From Alphaproteobacteria bacterium LSUCC0396 (GTDB lineage: Bacteria > Pseudomonadota > Alphaproteobacteria > Puniceispirillales > Puniceispirillaceae): a DNA stretch of 64,000 nt. This document shows positions 57,218 through 64,000 of this stretch, piece by piece. Location: positions 1,729,001 to 1,793,000 of the forward strand of contig CP166131.1 of assembly GCA_041228345.1 (NCBI GenBank), read 5' to 3'. The notes under the pieces were generated by a model that had not been told where the DNA came from, ran no database searches, and saw nothing but the letters and a program-made list of their open reading frames with translations. The number at the start of each line of letters is the position of its first letter. The stretch's first letter is position 1. The position numbers and the translations under genes are program-made.

Positions 57218-57256
57218 GATCCCGTAGCTCATCAGGATAGAGCGACAGATTCCTAA
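57218..57256 (+). pseudogene. 5' half of a tRNA-Arg(CCT), cut in the anticodon loop (attachment site)
   Basis: The sequence folds as the 5' part of a tRNA: acceptor strand GATCCCG, TA, D-stem GCTC/GAGC with a standard D loop, then anticodon-stem strand ACAGA and loop TTCCTAA (57250-57256, anticodon CCT). After the loop the sequence changes to AT-rich DNA that cannot complete the stem (TCTGT is expected). This is what an attL junction made by recombination within the anticodon loop would look like. The 3' half should be at the other end of the element, beyond the window. Confidence 0.85.
57250..57256. other. Candidate attL core TTCCTAA
   Basis: The 7 bases of the anticodon loop are the last host-like bases before the composition change, and the same seven occupy the loop of the intact tRNA-Arg at 57408-57414. 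A seven-base core equal to an anticodon loop is a common crossover site of tyrosine recombinases. Confidence 0.65.
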
Positions 57257-57377
57257 TATTTGTATAGATTATAGTGTATTGTTTTAATTACGAAATAATG
57301 TGTTGATATTTTTTGTTAATAAATTGTTAAAATTTGCTTTTGTTAAAATCATTTGATATTAGTTAGTTGTGTGGTTT

Positions 57378-57454
57378 GGTCCGTTAGCTCAGATGGATAG
57401 AGCATCAGTTTCCTAAACTGAGGGTCAGAGGTTCGAATCCTCTACGGATCACCA
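57378..57454 (+). tRNA. tRNA-Arg (anticodon CCT), element-encoded
   Basis: Complete cloverleaf: acceptor GGTCCGT/ACGGATC (one G-T pair), D arm GCTC/GAGC, anticodon arm TCAGT/ACTGA around TTCCTAA, variable GGGTC, T arm AGAGG/CCTCT with TTCGAAT, discriminator A and encoded CCA. It differs in many positions from the host remnant at 57218 and lies in AT-rich element DNA, so it is the element's own copy. It would replace the host tRNA destroyed by integration and serve the element's AGG codons. Confidence 0.95.
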
Positions 57455-57492
57455 CACTGATCATAAAAAATTGATCTGTATCCATCTATGTG

Positions 57493-57533
57493 ATCTCATT
57501 TGATCAGAAACCATTTCTGTTCCGAAATGAGAT
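57493..57533 (+). promoter_or_regulatory. Nested hairpin directly before the first glycosyltransferase start
   Basis: ATCTCATTT (57493-57501) pairs with AAATGAGAT (57525-57533) around an inner CAGAAA-CCA-TTTCTG hairpin (57505-57519). The structure ends three bases before the ATG at 57537, and no Shine-Dalgarno is evident, so it may control translation or be a processing site. Confidence 0.55.
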
Positions 57534-57536
57534 TTA

Positions 57537-59198
57537 ATGGATCGTATTTTTATTCCTACGGTCAATAGAGTTGACCGACAGATCACATATAATGGGTTAC
57601 CAAAATCACTTCAAAAGAAAGTGACTATGGTTGTCCAACATTGGGAACGACCTCAATACAAATACGATTGTGATTATTTGGTTTTACCTAAGAAGTTGGA
57701 TTTGTCTGATCCGATGTGTTTACCAAAAAGTAGGGAAATCATTTATAGGGAAGGTAGGAACATCAAATATTCGGTTATTGATGATGATCTTATTTTCAAA
57801 AGAAGGAACCAAAAGAGATTTGGATTACCTTCCGATATGGAAAAGAGTAGTAGGTTATGTACCAATAAAGATGTAACCGAAATGTTTAAAACATTTTCCA
57901 AATGGTTGGATGATCCAACTGTTACTTTTTGTGGTCCATCACAAATCCAAAATATTCCCTCAACAGACTTTTATAAGAACAACCAATCCATCAGTAGTTT
58001 TGTCTGTTTCAATGGATCAGATTTTAAAGATGTGTTGGATGATTTACCCACCACTGAAGTGAGGTATGGGGAAGATACGATATTCTTTTTAAGTCTTTTA
58101 AGTAGAGGTTTTGGAAATAGAGTTTCCCATTTATTTTGTTTTGGTAATGAAAGTTTAAAAGGAAAAATACCATCGGATGTTTGGGATAAAACCAAATACA
58201 ACGATGTTTGGAGGGATCATAAGAAGATAGAAAAAATGTTCCCTCAGTTTTTCAAAATCCCATTGGATGAAAATGGAAAACGAATAGAAGGTGGGTTTAG
58301 AAATTTCGGTAAGGTCCGAACCTATTGGTCAAAATGTTACCAATCATCTCAGTTCAAATCACAAAAGAGTGGTAAAAAAATGAGTTATAGATTTAGAGGT
58401 CACAACCGTATCAACCTCAATGATGATTTAGAAAATGAAATCAAACAACGGTTCGATGATGACAGAGAAAATCGATTTCAACTGTTTTTATTGAGTAGTT
58501 CTATTCGGAAGAAGTATTTGGATAAGACTACCAACCAATACACTAAAGAATTTCAAAAATGGTATTCTGACAAAAAACTAACTGACTATTACGGATCATT
58601 GTCAAATTTCACCAAATACTGTGGTTGTGGTGAAGTGGTTAATTATGTTGGTACCAAAACATCAGATCCCCAAAAATACCTAAAACAATTACCCTTATCA
58701 GTTGGATCACTTTACGAACTTTCGATGGTTCTTAAATCTGATAAAGATCTGTTCAATATCCTTCTTCATTACACACCAAAACGAAAATCAGTTGATGAAC
58801 CAAAGTTTGATTGGATCACCAAAAGACCACCACTCATTAGATCTAATCAAACTGAAAAGGGTGTGAGAGATTGGAGACAAAAGTGGGAGAATCCACCACC
58901 ACCGAAACCAAAAAGAACCGATAAACGAACTTTGAAATTTCTTACGATTACTGTGAATGGTGAGTTGTTCGATTTCGATAAAAAGAATGGTGATAAAATC
59001 GGATGTGTTGATTTGAATGATGTTGAGAATTTTCTAACTAAGGTTAGGAAACTGATTACCAAAGAAAACGAACATCAATTTCTGATCACAGATGAAATGG
59101 AGTATCTCACTGATGGGTACTTCAAACGAAAAGATCAAACGGATGTAACGAAAAATCTGAAGGGTGGTAAAAAAGATACCACTAAGAAATACAAATAA
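57537..59198 (+). CDS. Probable TAGT-like DNA-base glycosyltransferase with fused DNA-binding-like domain
   Basis: 553 aa, no signal peptide. N-terminal half looks like a GT-A fold: first strand 'RIFIPTVNRVDRQITY', 'DYLVLP', then a DDD at residues 82-84 ('YSVIDDDLIF') where GT-A enzymes hold the metal/nucleotide motif, and 'YGEDTIFFLSLLSRG' (ED at 179-180), the acidic acceptor-side motif. This architecture and the neighbouring gene suggest the TET-associated glycosyltransferase (TAGT) group of phage DNA-modifying enzymes. Residues about 330-430 are helical with 'LKQLPLSVGSLYELSMV', like the LPxSxxxLYEL helix-turn-helix modules of phage DNA-binding proteins. The C terminus is lysine-rich. The TAGT assignment is weaker than for the next gene. 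Confidence 0.6.
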   Translation: MDRIFIPTVNRVDRQITYNGLPKSLQKKVTMVVQHWERPQYKYDCDYLVLPKKLDLSDPMCLPKSREIIYREGRNIKYSVIDDDLIFKRRNQKRFGLPSDMEKSSRLCTNKDVTEMFKTFSKWLDDPTVTFCGPSQIQNIPSTDFYKNNQSISSFVCFNGSDFKDVLDDLPTTEVRYGEDTIFFLSLLSRGFGNRVSHLFCFGNESLKGKIPSDVWDKTKYNDVWRDHKKIEKMFPQFFKIPLDENGKRIEGGFRNFGKVRTYWSKCYQSSQFKSQKSGKKMSYRFRGHNRINLNDDLENEIKQRFDDDRENRFQLFLLSSSIRKKYLDKTTNQYTKEFQKWYSDKKLTDYYGSLSNFTKYCGCGEVVNYVGTKTSDPQKYLKQLPLSVGSLYELSMVLKSDKDLFNILLHYTPKRKSVDEPKFDWITKRPPLIRSNQTEKGVRDWRQKWENPPPPKPKRTDKRTLKFLTITVNGELFDFDKKNGDKIGCVDLNDVENFLTKVRKLITKENEHQFLITDEMEYLTDGYFKRKDQTDVTKNLKGGKKDTTKKYK

Positions 59199-60646
59199 TG
59201 GGGAAGATAAAGAACAACATCGAAGTAGTAGAAACCACATCATACGATGATTTGGTTGATGAGGTTAATAAGGTTGAGAAATACGAATTAGGTTATCAAC
59301 CACCAAAACCAAAAGGTAAGAAATCTGATTACCCATTTGTGTTGAAAGTTCATTGTTGGAACATCACCGATACACAAAAATTCTGTGAAACAATCGGTAA
59401 ATCACTAAGTAGTGATAAAACAAAATTCACCTACACATCACATCAATCAAAAGATCCGAAGTTTGTTGAGAAAAGGAAAAATCCGTTTCCTAAGAAAACC
59501 TCACACAAAGATCGAATTGAATCACAACTTTGGAAAAATACGGTTGAGTTTTGGAACGATGGTTGGAGACCCTACATTACCTTTCACATCACCTTCAAAA
59601 ATCAAAAATCTCATATGGAGTTTACGAAGAAGGTGAAACAAAGGTTATCGTTAAACCTTCCATATATGAACTTTCCTTTTAGAGAACCAAAGAAGTGGAA
59701 GTATTGGTGGGTTTGTCGAAGTGAAACGGTGAAACCTCAATATCCAATTTACATAGTTTCAAAGAATAGAGGTGATAGTCGTTTAACCTCAAAGTGTTTG
59801 GAACGGTTAGGTATCCCTTATTACATCGTAATAGAACCACAGAATTACGATGAATACAGTTGTATGATCGATAAAGAAAAGATCTTAGTTCTTCCGTATT
59901 CAAATAGTGGTGATGGTGTTGGTAGAAGCCGTAATTGGGTTTGGGATCACTCAACCCAAATGGGATTCAAACGACATTGGGTGATGGATGACAACATCAC
60001 TGATTTCTTCAGATTGTACGGAAATAGAAAACTTCCTATCGGTGATGGTGGGATGTTTAGGGTTTGTGAGGAGTTTGTTGATAGGTTTAAGAATGTACCT
60101 ATTAGTGGTCTCCAATATGATTTCTTTTGTGTAGATAAAGTACCTCATCCACCGTTTGTTAGAAATTGTAGGATCTATTCGGTTCTACTGATTGAAAATA
60201 GTTGTCCTTTCAGATGGAGAGGTAGGTACAACGAAGATACAATTTTGAGTTTAGATGTACTTAAACATAAGAAATCCGATCCATCGTTGTATGAACCACA
60301 GTTCGATATCAAAAATTACAAAAAGGATGGTTGGAAAGGAGATCTATGTACAATCCAATTCAATTGTCTACTTCAACATAAATCACCTACTCAAAACTTA
60401 GGTGGTGGTAATAGTGATGAGTTCTATTTCAAAGAGGGTACTTACAACAAATCAAAGATGTTGGAGGTCATTCACAATGATGTGAGTAAGGTGGATTGGA
60501 GATTTAGTAGGTATCACCATACGGTTAACTACAATCCATTTAAGGGTAATGAACTTCAGTATGTGGACGGTTATGATCCATCAAAGAATAAGAGTGAAAC
60601 TGAACTTTTTGAGTTCGATAGGGTGAAGGATTACTTCAAAAAATGA
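59198..60646 (+). CDS. TET-associated glycosyltransferase (TAGT) family protein
   Basis: 482 aa. The catalytic domain begins at residue 183: 'PIYIVSKNRGDSRLTSKCLE', 'IPYYIVIEPQNYDEY', 'ILVLPYSNSGDGVGRSRNWV', 'RHWVMDDNITDFFRLY' (DDN 264-266) and 'RYNEDTILSLDVL' (ED 346-347) are in the order known for TAGT enzymes of phages, which attach sugars to hydroxymethylated pyrimidines in DNA. Residues about 45-180 hold two tandem copies of a small alpha/beta module ('FVLKVHCWNITDTQKFCETIG' and 'YITFHITFKNQKSHMEFTKKV', shown by their starts). The start overlaps the previous stop by one base (TAATG). No TET/JBP dioxygenase or hydroxymethylase is visible. Confidence 0.8.
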   Translation: MGKIKNNIEVVETTSYDDLVDEVNKVEKYELGYQPPKPKGKKSDYPFVLKVHCWNITDTQKFCETIGKSLSSDKTKFTYTSHQSKDPKFVEKRKNPFPKKTSHKDRIESQLWKNTVEFWNDGWRPYITFHITFKNQKSHMEFTKKVKQRLSLNLPYMNFPFREPKKWKYWWVCRSETVKPQYPIYIVSKNRGDSRLTSKCLERLGIPYYIVIEPQNYDEYSCMIDKEKILVLPYSNSGDGVGRSRNWVWDHSTQMGFKRHWVMDDNITDFFRLYGNRKLPIGDGGMFRVCEEFVDRFKNVPISGLQYDFFCVDKVPHPPFVRNCRIYSVLLIENSCPFRWRGRYNEDTILSLDVLKHKKSDPSLYEPQFDIKNYKKDGWKGDLCTIQFNCLLQHKSPTQNLGGGNSDEFYFKEGTYNKSKMLEVIHNDVSKVDWRFSRYHHTVNYNPFKGNELQYVDGYDPSKNKSETELFEFDRVKDYFKK

Positions 60647-60690
60647 TTTCGGATCCGAAATGGGAAATTGAGGTTTAGGGAACTAATTTG

Positions 60691-61047
60691 ATGAGATGGG
60701 TTTTTCTAATATTGATAGGTGTGTTGTGTTGGGGAGGATTTGTTCAACACACTCACAATGAGGAAGGTGTAAAGGAGGGTGTTGAGGAACTGTTTACAAA
60801 GAATGGTTACTCAAACATTGTAGTTAGTGGTGTAAATCTTCCGATATCCTATACTTTCCTATCACAAAAGGTTGTGAGTGAAGTGTTCATAAAAAGGGAT
60901 GGTAAAGACCAAAAGATTGATGTGACTATCACACCAATAGAGGGTTTCCCTATCATTTCAATATTTCTTCCACCATCATTTTACATAGAGGTAAACAACT
61001 TTGAGAATTTAGGTTTGGATTTTCTGAAGTGGTTGTTTGAAAAATAA
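60691..61047 (+). CDS. Small exported or membrane-anchored protein of unknown function
   Basis: 118 aa. An N-terminal hydrophobic stretch (residues about 4-18, RWVFLILIGVLCWGGF) is a signal anchor or signal peptide. The rest has alternating beta-strand-like segments and a hydrophobic 'FPIISIFLPPSFYIEV' near the end. I do not recognise a family. It lies 44 bp after the TAGT gene and 30 bp before the NERD gene in the same direction, so it is part of that transcript. A TTG three bases earlier could also start it. Confidence 0.65.
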   Translation: MRWVFLILIGVLCWGGFVQHTHNEEGVKEGVEELFTKNGYSNIVVSGVNLPISYTFLSQKVVSEVFIKRDGKDQKIDVTITPIEGFPIISIFLPPSFYIEVNNFENLGLDFLKWLFEK

Positions 61048-61077
61048 CAACAGAGATAGAAAAACGGAATATGAACA

Positions 61078-61764
61078 ATGAGTTGGTATTACTACATAAT
61101 CATCTGTGTTCTGTTGATGGTAGTGATCGGATCTCTGAGATCAAACAGATACAAAAAATCCTCCTACTACCAAAGTACTAAAAAATCCCTTTCCCAATTG
61201 GATAAAGGTGAATTGGGAGAATATCAAATTTGGGAGGAATTGGAGTGGTACGAAAAAGATGGAGGAAAGTTTCTTTTTAACCTCTATATTCCTAAACCAA
61301 ATGAAGAGACTACAGAAATCGATGTAGTTCTTATTCACCCTAAAGGGTTCTTTGTCATTGAAAGTAAAAACTACAGTGGTTGGATCTTTGGTAATGATAA
61401 AAACCGATATTGGACACAAACTTTACCGATGGGTAGAGGTCGTCAAAGTCACAAAGAAAGATTTTACAGTCCTCTAAGACAAAATGGATCACATATCAGA
61501 TATCTCAAAAGAGTTCTGAATGAGACTGTACCAATGTGGTCACTGATAGTTTTTTCAAATGAATGTACATTTAAGGGTGTATCAGTTTCATCTGAAAAAC
61601 GGTTTAGGGTAATTCACCTCAATGAATTGAGATCTACGGTCAAACAACTCATAGATGAAACAGAAGAAGTTCTTTTTTCCGAAGAGGACATCCAATGGAT
61701 GTATGAAGAACTTTATCCGTTCACCACAGAAGATGAGGAAGTCAAAATCAAACATAAGAGTTAG
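61078..61764 (+). CDS. Membrane-anchored NERD-domain (nuclease-related) protein
   Basis: 228 aa. One N-terminal membrane helix (residues 4-20), then a NERD domain: 'LDKGELGEYQIWEELEW' (glutamates near 44-48), 'TEIDVVLIHPKGFFVIESKNYSGWIFG' split as D82 and the E95-S-K97 motif, the PD-(D/E)xK-like core. Such proteins are predicted nucleases of DNA processing or defence, though few have been tested. The C-terminal 100 residues have 'LRQNGSHIRYLKRVL' and 'IVFSNECTFKG', usual for the family. Its 3' end overlaps the convergent recombinase by 4 bp. Confidence 0.85.
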   Translation: MSWYYYIIICVLLMVVIGSLRSNRYKKSSYYQSTKKSLSQLDKGELGEYQIWEELEWYEKDGGKFLFNLYIPKPNEETTEIDVVLIHPKGFFVIESKNYSGWIFGNDKNRYWTQTLPMGRGRQSHKERFYSPLRQNGSHIRYLKRVLNETVPMWSLIVFSNECTFKGVSVSSEKRFRVIHLNELRSTVKQLIDETEEVLFSEEDIQWMYEELYPFTTEDEEVKIKHKS

Positions 61765-62363
61765 ATCAGATCAACTACTTTCCTTTGAGATTCACTATCA
61801 CCCTCAATGTATCTTTGAGTAGTTTGTAGTGATCTATGACCTACCATCATCTGAATATCCCTCAATGATCCACCAACTAATGATATCCGTTTAGATGTTT
61901 CGGTGATAAATGTTCTTCTCCCACTATGAGATGAACACCCCAATAAACCTAATCTCCGATACCAACTCTGAAACATATTCACTACACATTGAGAAGTTGT
62001 GAAAGGTGATCTCTCAGTTCGAACTACAAAAGAGGTATCGATGTTAAAAGATCGGTACATCCGTTGTTGTTGATCCAACAATTCAATGAGATTTTTACGA
62101 AGGTCTTTGTTGATAGGTATAATTCGTCCACTGAGACCTTTAGAACTTCTATTAGTAAGATTAATATGATCAGACACTTTACCATCACTATCACAAACCT
62201 CTTTCCAACTGAGTTGTGAGATTTCTTTAGATCGAAGACCACCTTTTACGGACAAAAGGAATATGGTTTCATTTCTTAAACCATTCCTTTTTGACCGAAG
62301 GTAAGACCTCATCATTTCGATTTGTGATTTATTGAGTGTCTTTGATTGTTTACCTATTCCCAT
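61761..62363 (-). CDS. Tyrosine recombinase/integrase, catalytic-domain-only (FimB-sized)
   Basis: 200 aa. Catalytic residues: R44 ('KGGLRSKEISQL'), H146 and R149 ('SSHSGRRTFIT'), H176 ('MVGHRSLQTTQ') and nucleophile Y185 ('TTQRYIEGD'). The usual N-terminal SAM-like and arm-binding domains of phage integrases are missing; only about 30 residues precede the catalytic domain, as in FimB/FimE. It is the best candidate for recombination at the tRNA-Arg anticodon loop 4.5 kb to the left. Divergent from the HEPN-like gene across a repeat-rich 176-bp region. Confidence 0.92.
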   Translation of the reverse strand: MGIGKQSKTLNKSQIEMMRSYLRSKRNGLRNETIFLLSVKGGLRSKEISQLSWKEVCDSDGKVSDHINLTNRSSKGLSGRIIPINKDLRKNLIELLDQQQRMYRSFNIDTSFVVRTERSPFTTSQCVVNMFQSWYRRLGLLGCSSHSGRRTFITETSKRISLVGGSLRDIQMMVGHRSLQTTQRYIEGDSESQRKVVDLI

Positions 62364-62539
62364 AATTTGTCTCCAAACTGATTATCAAATTATGGTTCCT
62401 AATTATATCATCATCAGTTATTTTTAACACCCCTTTTTAGGTATTAAATTACTGAATAAACTCAATATTTTATGAAATCTGATTATACTTTGTAAATTCT
62501 ATAATCAGTGGTCTATAGTTGGATTAGATACCATTTTTT
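62364..62539. promoter_or_regulatory. Recombinase/HEPN divergent control region with CTGATTATA repeats
   Basis: Very AT-rich. A perfect inverted repeat CTGATTATA (62479-62487) / TATAATCAG (62500-62508) is joined by another direct CTGATTAT at 62378. TATAAT (62500-62505) can act as a -10. These repeats are plausible binding sites for a regulator such as the element's ribbon-helix-helix protein, or recombinase accessory sites. Confidence 0.6.
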
Positions 62540-63133
62540 TTGAGTTGTTTGATGTCTGAAGATCTGAAGTTTACCAACAAACAAAAGAACATTCGTATGG
62601 AAGGTGAGGAAGGTAGTACTCAAAACCGATTACGGTATGAACTGTACACCGAAGGTTTCAAACGAATTAAAGAAGGTTTGGAAGAAGAACGATACTTTGA
62701 GGTGTGTTGTATTGTTGATTCAATTATCAATGATCGTCTCACAGCATTAATCCAAACAATTAAAAACGATGACGGTATCGATTACACCTACCAATCAGTA
62801 GGTATGGTGATACGAACTCTGTTTAAGATTGTTAAAGAAGATAAGATTTTACTATCAACAGATTTTAGGAAGTTGATGAGTAATATTGAACAGATTTGGT
62901 TACCTAAACGAAACTTTGTAAGTCATTCGTTTGTTGGTGTTACACCATCCAACATAGATTTGAATTTAGAGGATCGATTACAGATCGTAAAAGAATGTGG
63001 TGAATTGGGTTCTAAGTATTGTAGGGATCTGACAACTGAATGTGATAAAATGATTCACATCATCAAAAATTACGGAATTCCATACAAAACCCCATTCAGT
63101 AATAGAAAATCAAATACTGAATGGGATACGTAA
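62540..63133 (+). CDS. Probable HEPN-domain protein
   Basis: 197 aa, almost wholly helical, cytoplasmic. Residues 41-75 ('RIKEGLEEERYFEVCCIVDSIINDRL', by its blocks LEEERYFEV and IVDSIINDRL) resemble the second HEPN helix, and 'LPKRNFVSHSFVG' holds R124-N-F-V-S-H129, an R-x4-H motif, the catalytic signature of HEPN RNases in abortive-infection and toxin-antitoxin systems. No partner nucleotidyltransferase (MNT) is adjacent. The downstream genes are convergent. Function as a defence RNase is inference from one motif and position. Confidence 0.6.
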   Translation: MSCLMSEDLKFTNKQKNIRMEGEEGSTQNRLRYELYTEGFKRIKEGLEEERYFEVCCIVDSIINDRLTALIQTIKNDDGIDYTYQSVGMVIRTLFKIVKEDKILLSTDFRKLMSNIEQIWLPKRNFVSHSFVGVTPSNIDLNLEDRLQIVKECGELGSKYCRDLTTECDKMIHIIKNYGIPYKTPFSNRKSNTEWDT

Positions 63134-63397
63134 TTATTTCTTTGAACCTACCAAACCTTTTTTCATCCGATTAAGTAGTTGAGAGTCGTTTGAAGAAACA
63201 CCAATCCCTAATCCACCAATATATGAAAGTAAGTTGTTCTGTTGAGAGATCAGATCGTTCTGTTTCTTTGGGTCAGTTTCAGTTTGAATCCGTTGTGATA
63301 AACCCCTCATTTTGAGTACCAAACCACCTACAACGAATTTTACCCATAGTGGATATTTACCTTCATTGATGGTGATAAATTGTTTGAAACTGTACAT
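63134..63397 (-). CDS. 87-aa phage-like protein with T4-type capsid-targeting N terminus (putative)
   Basis: The N terminus MYSFKQFITINEG resembles the capsid-targeting sequence of T4 internal proteins (MKTYQEFIAE type), and I-N-E-G at residues 10-13 fits the T4 prohead-protease consensus (L/I)-x-E before A/G. The remaining 75 residues contain a hydrophobic stretch ('WVKFVVGGLVLKM'), a glutamine-rich helix and a glycine-rich loop. No family recognised. Its ATG immediately follows the stop codon of the upstream gene, with a GGAGG site inside that gene's end. Third gene of a leftward operon. Confidence 0.7.
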   Translation of the reverse strand: MYSFKQFITINEGKYPLWVKFVVGGLVLKMRGLSQRIQTETDPKKQNDLISQQNNLLSYIGGLGIGVSSNDSQLLNRMKKGLVGSKK

Positions 63398-63589
63398 CTA
63401 CACCTCCAATACAATGATGGTGTAGTTTTTTTGATTGGTAGTTCGTTTAAGTTCTTTATCGATCTCATCAATTTGTGAGTTATCAACGTAATCGAATTTT
63501 CTAATCTTTTTGACCTTCACCTTTTGTACGTAAGAATTGAGTTCTGATTTGGATAACTCAAAATTTTTGTTGGTGATTGGATAGATCAT
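63398..63589 (-). CDS. 63-aa protein of unknown function
   Basis: Small, basic, with 'YVQKVKVKKIRKFDYVDN' and a beta-strand-like end 'KNYTIIVLEV'. No recognisable domain. ATG overlaps the stop of the ribbon-helix-helix gene (ATGA), and its own stop abuts the 87-aa gene, so it is translationally coupled to both. Could be a small DNA- or RNA-binding protein; that is speculation. Confidence 0.65.
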   Translation of the reverse strand: MIYPITNKNFELSKSELNSYVQKVKVKKIRKFDYVDNSQIDEIDKELKRTTNQKNYTIIVLEV

Positions 63590-63954
63590 TTCAATTCACC
63601 TAACCTACCTAAACCACTGACGTCTGACCAATCATCGTTATGGTAGTCAGATTTTAATGGGATCATTGGTTTGTCATCATCATCAAAGTAACTATCCGTT
63701 GATGTAGTCGGTCGTTCTGATGACGGTTGGGTTCTGAATGATTTGTTTTTGTGAGATCTAAGTTTCACATCATTGAGGAGTGATTGAAGTTTATCATCCT
63801 CTTTGAGTTGTTGATGTTCAGATCTTAACCATTGTTCCATCAGTGTATTGATGATGGAGGTTCTACTAATTCGTTTGAATTTAACTAAATCATCGAATGA
63901 GGTTTTAAGGTGATTTGGACAATAAAAGGTAATGGAAGAACTATTGGTATTCAT
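63586..63954 (-). CDS. Ribbon-helix-helix-like DNA-binding protein
   Basis: 122 aa. Residues 5-45 have the pattern of a ribbon-helix-helix: a strand 'SSITFYCPNHLKTSF', helix 'DDLVKFKRIS' and helix 'SRTSIINTLMEQWLRS'. The rest is charged and probably disordered, ending 'SDVSGLGRLGELK'. Such proteins act as repressors of element genes or as plasmid-mobilisation/partition accessory factors. AAGGAG lies eight bases before the ATG. It is a candidate binder of the CTGATTATA repeats. Confidence 0.75.
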   Translation of the reverse strand: MNTNSSSITFYCPNHLKTSFDDLVKFKRISRTSIINTLMEQWLRSEHQQLKEDDKLQSLLNDVKLRSHKNKSFRTQPSSERPTTSTDSYFDDDDKPMIPLKSDYHNDDWSDVSGLGRLGELK

Positions 63955-63963
63955 TTTGACTCC

Positions 63964-64000
63964 TTAGTAGATCATAAACTCATCCAATGTCATTGGAGGT
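63964..64000 (-). CDS. 3' end of a further leftward gene (very short part)
   Basis: On the minus strand, codons ending 'PMTLDEFMIY' run to a TAA at 63966-63964 that is merged with the AAGGAG site of the next gene, as in tightly packed phage operons. Only 11 residues are inside the window, so this is tentative. Confidence 0.35.
   Translation of the reverse strand, partial: PPMTLDEFMIY

Follow-up and report, generated by a model that had tools for sequence, protein, structure and literature searches.

The DNA analysed here is a stretch of 64,000 nucleotides (the window) from the genome of Alphaproteobacteria bacterium LSUCC0396 (G000), a single contig of 2,592,803 bases; the window corresponds to C1:1729001-1793000. 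Within it, an AT-rich 9.4-kb element occupies the anticodon loop of the host tRNA-Arg(CCT) gene and carries a complete tRNA-Arg(CCT) of its own. The features that define the two junctions are as follows.

57218..57256 (+), 5′ half of the host tRNA-Arg(CCT), GATCCCGTAGCTCATCAGGATAGAGCGACAGATTCCTAA, ending with the anticodon loop TTCCTAA at the left attachment junction (attL)
57249..57257 (+), left copy of the 9-bp common core ATTCCTAAT; right copy at genome 1795647-1795655, outside the window
57250..64000, window part of the element, which runs on to genome 1795654 (window-equivalent 66654), 2.7 kb past the window
57257..57377 (+), AT-rich spacer of 121 bp between the junction and the element tRNA
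57378..57454 (+), element-borne full tRNA-Arg(CCT) with CCA encoded (ARAGORN and Rfam, 67 bits)
Genome 1794278-1795504 (-), tyrosine integrase P0008 (Pfam Phage_integrase, E=5.6e-8; phrog_1, E=5.6e-31), adjoining the orphan 3′ half of the host tRNA

A split host tRNA gene and a carried tRNA

After the TTCCTAA of the host 5′ half, the sequence passes straight into AT-rich DNA. The orphan 3′ half of the same gene (TTCCTAATCTGTAGGTAGGGGGTTCGAGTCCCTCCGGGATCACCA) was located beyond the window at genome position 1795648, so that the two halves are separated by 9,405 bases of 34.5% G+C in surroundings of about 50%. Joined exactly, the halves give a tRNA with 21 of 21 stem pairs and a folding energy of −28.6 kcal/mol (element tRNA, −24.5 kcal/mol). 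When positions 57218-57256 were instead folded with the element bases that follow them, the tRNA fold was lost (−8.6 kcal/mol, worse than its shuffles). Both junctions are simple and single-copy. Identity between the left junction (ACAGATTCCTAATATTTG) and the right junction (AATATATTCCTAATCTGT) is confined to the 9 bp of ATTCCTAAT, with the 7-nt anticodon loop at their centre, which places the bacterial attachment site (attB) inside the host tRNA gene with only a short core. With attachment-site identity of just 9 bp, the host tRNA-Arg(CCT) is not rebuilt, and neither junction restores the target. An initial annotation, made from the sequence alone, had described a host gene destroyed at the anticodon loop, of which only the 5′ half remained at the left junction, and a common core of TTCCTAA with a few flanking bases; the junctions bear out this description.

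The same annotation had placed a full and clearly different tRNA-Arg(CCT) 121 bp inside the element, and this too holds: the gene at 57378-57454 is the single tRNA in the window (ARAGORN, Rfam) and differs from the host tRNA-Arg(CCT) at 21 of 77 positions. Similarity to phage tRNAs reached 81-83% over most of its length, and was rejected as a clue to the origin of the gene, being no more than tRNA genes generally share. In simple scans of the 121-bp spacer, neither a terminator-like nor a sigma-70-like site was seen.

Empty sites and recurrence in related genomes

Chance is excluded as the source of the split gene, because a genome of the same species (G068) has an uninterrupted tRNA-Arg(CCT) between the same flanks, one base off the rejoined G000 halves within the tRNA. 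The native gene is intact in 29 genomes of the family, G068 included, so the remnant in G000 is not an old pseudogene shared with element-free relatives, an origin that the initial annotation had also considered.

A second case was found in another genus. In G015, whose element encodes an integrase 79% identical to that of G000, TTCCTAA again marks the break in the host tRNA-Arg(CCT), and the orphan 3′ half is found at a distance of 9.1 kb. Inside the left junction, at a 172-base offset and in the same direction, stands a complete tRNA-Arg(CCT) of foreign type. Over the first ~100 bases, identity between the two elements is 78%, and the element tRNA and its neighbourhood can be aligned between them. 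The two carried tRNAs differ at 13 of 77 bases and both keep 21 of 21 stem pairs, with changes falling on both sides of the acceptor, anticodon and T stems. The carried gene is thus intact and under pairing constraint, a pattern that would be expected if its function has been kept.

Further stages are represented in the family. In G005, which belongs to the same genus as G000, the host 5′ half carries 5 mutations, and beside it (L096:4336-6780) lies an intact full tRNA-Arg(CCT) of another, element type. A second, degenerate element-type copy, 2.3 kb on, runs into the host flank; these are probably the remnants of two tandem elements, of which the tRNA was kept. In G000, G015 and G005 alike, the carried tRNA is in line with the host gene, 115 to 172 bases past the loop. 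The tRNA-Arg(CCT) of G009 (L296:14648-14860, minus strand) contains a group I intron in its anticodon loop (RF00028, 52.6 bits), and its exons match the element-type tRNA of G005 at 67 of 77 positions, compared with 62 of 77 for the native tRNA.

tRNA inventory and a split gene without a replacement

A tRNA search of the G000 genome gave 38 matches, among which only the element tRNA has the anticodon CCT, and a loose pattern (CCT anticodon plus T arms) returned as tRNA-like places the element tRNA and the orphan half only. By these two methods no second tRNA-Arg(CCT) was found in G000. The inventory is nearly but not wholly complete, as a control, tRNA-Ile(GAT), was not found in three genomes; its probable blind spot is the ribosomal RNA (rRNA) operon stretches, which lay outside the searched sequence. 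Partial tRNA-like matches, covering Rfam model positions 8-63 and not called by ARAGORN, also occur at G000:C1:1267029-1267086 and G015:C14:1886-1943.

G019, a complete genome of the same family, shows the other outcome. Its tRNA-Arg(CCT) is split at the same seven bases by an element of 16.4 kb whose integrase is 40% identical to that of G000. ARAGORN found no tRNA in this element, and neither the 34 tRNA matches of the genome nor the loose pattern gave a further tRNA-Arg(CCT) (the rRNA-operon blind spot applies). Host genes of G019 nevertheless use AGG, with 28 codons in 34 sampled genes (2.0 per thousand), as in its relatives. Loss of tRNA-Arg(CCT) therefore seems to be tolerated in G019, subject to the same blind spot. 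Another orphan 3′ half with a G019-like junction occurs in G002 (L289), where the contig stops 70 bases into the insert.

Modification of U34 by MnmE lets tRNAs such as tRNA-Arg(TCT) read codons ending in G. G000 and G019 both have tRNA-Arg(TCT) and MnmE, and tRNA-Arg(TCT) probably reads AGG as well, so the replacement tRNA-Arg(CCT) is probably not essential and looks useful rather than vital.

A sister branch in tRNA-Arg(TCT) and integrase phylogeny

Related elements in two SAR116 genomes, L181 (SCGC AAA536-K22) and L182 (AG-892-O16, also G048), interrupt tRNA-Arg(TCT) at CTTCTAA; each has a complete tRNA-Arg(TCT) of its own, ~215 bases in from the left junction and pointing the opposite way. 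That these two might be rebuilding elements was ruled out by the split host gene together with the opposite direction of the whole tRNA. The host tRNA half of L182 already has a D-arm mutation. In G048, which is 90% complete, the carried tRNA is the only intact tRNA-Arg(TCT) found. Since AGA has no other reader, tRNA-Arg(TCT) is expected to be essential, and host dependence on the element tRNA is likely in this branch. A further member, L186 (AG-892-O07), has near-identical right-hand DNA; its left end holds an intact tRNA-Arg(TCT), and an orphan 3′ half is found at the opposite end. This is the arrangement of classical islands, and only L186 looks rebuilt.

The G000 integrase belongs to a family that targets tRNA genes in the anticodon arm. 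In a tree of 35 related integrases, those of G000, G015, G019 and the TCT elements group together (support 80/90), and integrases whose neighbour is an intact tRNA, among them Arg(CCG), Gly, Val and Thr, fall elsewhere; four rows of the tree are TCT elements, including L180. Members of the clade have their integrase next to the orphan 3′ half, whereas in most relatives it adjoins an intact tRNA. One integrase clade thus holds targets that are rebuilt (L186), replaced (G000, G015, L181, L182) and lost (G019).

Proposed mechanism

These observations are brought together by an account in which the element integrates in the loop, does not rebuild its target, and makes good the loss with a foreign tRNA-Arg(CCT). 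The 9.4-kb element would enter by tyrosine-recombinase strand exchange within the 7-nt loop TTCCTAA of tRNA-Arg(CCT). The attachment site of the element (attP) would match attB over ~9 bp only, leaving a tRNA to be rebuilt at neither junction, and the complete, non-homologous tRNA-Arg(CCT) just inside the left junction, set in the direction of the host tRNA, would compensate. The likely source of its transcription is read-through from the host promoter across the dead 5′ half, which is plausible because the tRNA is in line with the host gene and no terminator-like site was seen between them in G000. As only the near-invariant anticodon loop must match, such an element would need no host 3′ half and could presumably use hosts of different genera. 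Replacement of tRNA-Arg(CCT) would improve AGG decoding and the fitness of the carrier without being essential.

Several points weigh against this account. A simple promoter scan saw no promoter for the host tRNA or for the element tRNA. Expression and charging of the element tRNA are presumed, as are its fitness effect and the role of the integrase. Present-day mobility of the element is putative, and the lack of a replacement tRNA in G019 means that selection for one may be weak. With these points included, we consider replacement of the target tRNA, taken as a whole, highly probable.

Alternative explanations

The initial annotation had noted that the element is rich in AGG and that its tRNA suits these genes. 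The enrichment is clear: AGG accounts for 34 of 163 Arg codons in the G000 element (20.9%; 12.4 per thousand codons) and for 22.5% of those in its G015 counterpart. In 39 host genes of the window it makes up 28 of 877 (3.2%; 1.8 per thousand), and across host-gene samples 3.2-5.2%. One could therefore suppose that translation of the element's AGG-rich genes is the main purpose of the carried tRNA, the site in a gene for the same isoacceptor being secondary. Yet AGA is commoner than AGG in the G000 element (40% of Arg codons) and no tRNA-Arg(TCT) is carried, while the G019 element has 14% AGG without a tRNA-Arg(CCT). Elements of the sister branch, which insert in tRNA-Arg(TCT), bring a TCT isoacceptor with them. 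Which tRNA is carried thus depends on the gene that is hit, and this favours target replacement over a simple role in codon usage. Service to the element's own genes is thus possible for the carried tRNA, and as the main reason for carrying it, unlikely.

A second suggestion of the initial annotation was that the host has come to depend on the element tRNA, in the manner of an addiction device: the tRNA would be essential, cells losing it would die, and the element would be locked in. That the element tRNA is the only tRNA-Arg(CCT) found in G000 fits this idea, as does the dependence that is likely for the sister elements. For tRNA-Arg(CCT), however, the split gene of G019, with no replacement found and AGG still in use, weakens the case, as does the presence of tRNA-Arg(TCT) and MnmE in both genomes. 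Moreover, precise excision would regenerate the host tRNA as the element tRNA leaves, so loss by that route would go unpunished and only deletion of the element tRNA alone would be penalized. Dependence on the element for tRNA-Arg(CCT) was accordingly not upheld, and we regard it as quite improbable.

It is very doubtful that the locus is a classical, target-restoring island misread through nested insertions or rearrangement. Most relatives of the integrase do sit beside an intact tRNA, and L186 has one on its left with an orphan 3′ half at the other end. In G000, though, the simple, single-copy junctions, when rejoined, give the empty site of the same species save for one base, and with the same layout in G015 this explanation is excluded unless the assembly is wrong in both genomes. 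Finally, a split or intron-bearing tRNA whose halves are spliced, as the position of the insertion where tRNA introns lie and the group I intron in the tRNA-Arg(CCT) of the related G009 might suggest, can practically be dismissed, given the 9.4 kb and at least 12 genes in both directions between the halves, the lack of an RF00028 match at the gathering score in the window (the last 2.7 kb of the element lying outside that scan), and the fact that we know of no split tRNAs in bacteria.

Gene content of the element

The G000 element has at least 12 genes, running in both directions. In addition to the integrase and tRNA listed above, the following were assigned.

57537..59198 (+), cargo, weak relative of TET-associated and beta-glucosyl-HMC-alpha-glucosyltransferases (Pfam TAGT, E=0.00088, below cut-off; phrog_842, E=1.3e-16)
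59198..60646 (+), cargo, TET-associated glycosyltransferase (Pfam, E=2.9e-29), 42-48% identical to T4-like phage proteins
61078..61764 (+), cargo, NERD (nuclease-related) domain protein (Pfam, E=7.9e-29)
61761..62363 (-), second tyrosine recombinase of 200 aa, made up of the catalytic domain only; 83% conservation with its G015 counterpart
63134..63397 (-), 87-aa protein, 78-80% conserved in the G015 element, N terminus MYSFKQFITINEG
63586..63954 (-), 122-aa protein with weak Arc-like repressor similarity (phrog_582, E=0.043) and a homologue in G015
Genome 1793486-1793983 (-), HUH-type Rep, outside the window

The core set shared by the G000 and G015 elements comprises the integrase, the 200-aa recombinase, the HUH-type Rep, the 87-aa protein and two small proteins; of the two, only G000 has the glycosyltransferases and the NERD protein. 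Positions 57537-60646 thus hold two neighbouring relatives of phage DNA-hypermodification glycosyltransferases (TAGT), the second of which shares 42-48% identity with proteins from the Aeromonas phages Aeh1 and 65. The N termini of the 87-aa protein (MYSFKQFITINEG in G000, MIRFKNFIELNEG in G015) appear to resemble T4-type capsid-targeting sequences with a prohead-protease site. Together, the glycosyltransferases and this N terminus hint at a satellite of T4-like phages.

Searches of ten element proteins against Pfam and PHROGs found no virion, terminase or lysis family, two short open reading frames lying outside the scan. The integrase, the short recombinase and the 87-aa protein were also compared with viral contigs, and no useful match resulted. 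The integrase alignment contained only distant matches from these contigs, and the 87-aa protein had no match in phages.

Comparison with known systems

On a wider view, small non-phage elements of SAR116-type bacteria may use whole-tRNA replacement on two arginine isoacceptors and so drive horizontal turnover of host tRNAs, in which the host halves decay and the element tRNAs become those of the host, as in G005 and perhaps G009; we put this forward tentatively, as a possibility somewhat short of even. It would provide a route for the exchange of tRNA genes among bacteria. With these elements, target replacement, first demonstrated in temperate actinobacteriophages, is extended to an abundant order of marine bacteria and to small carriers that have no recognised virion genes; they also offer a natural test of the dispensability of tRNA-Arg(CCT). 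The relation of rebuilding to replacing, the evolution of which is called unclear by the authors of PMC10865867, becomes testable in a clade with two targets, of which tRNA-Arg(CCT) can apparently be lost and tRNA-Arg(TCT) is not expected to be.

The principle of target-tRNA replacement is already known. The nearest parallel is tRNA-dependent lysogeny, described in 2024 in actinobacteriophages with cores of 8-11 bp (Fionnbharth, Cluster L, Gaia and Mollymur; PMC10865867). It shares with the elements here a tyrosine integrase, an attB in a host tRNA gene, a short core, a target that is not rebuilt and a substitute tRNA supplied by the element, and relatives there also vary among rebuilding, replacing and lacking a tRNA. 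The carriers there, however, are temperate phages, whereas here they are elements of 9.1-9.4 kb that encode an HUH-type Rep and in which no virion genes were recognised; the hosts here are SAR116-type alphaproteobacteria; and the tRNA lost there is essential, whereas loss of tRNA-Arg(CCT) seems to be tolerated in G019.

In Sinorhizobium meliloti, prophage-related sequences make up for a tRNA gene inactivated by integration with one of matching isoacceptor type that does not belong to the host lineage (PMC11476347), and the same is indicated for the Lactobacillus prophage Lj965, as cited in PMC10865867. Both resemble the present case in this respect and differ in being phage sequences with other targets. 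Classical islands in tRNA genes (Islander, PMC4383910) also have a tyrosine integrase, a crossover of the anticodon-loop class and an element lying between a tRNA and a tRNA fragment; the anticodon loop is a classical crossover site in Campbell's model, according to the summary in PMC8371274. Such islands rebuild the target from a fragment in attP, which the G000 element does not do. In the open-access literature, no report of tRNA replacement by such elements in SAR116 was found. What differs here from the known systems is the small-element carrier, the hosts, the arginine isoacceptors, and the series of rebuilt, replaced and lost targets within one clade.
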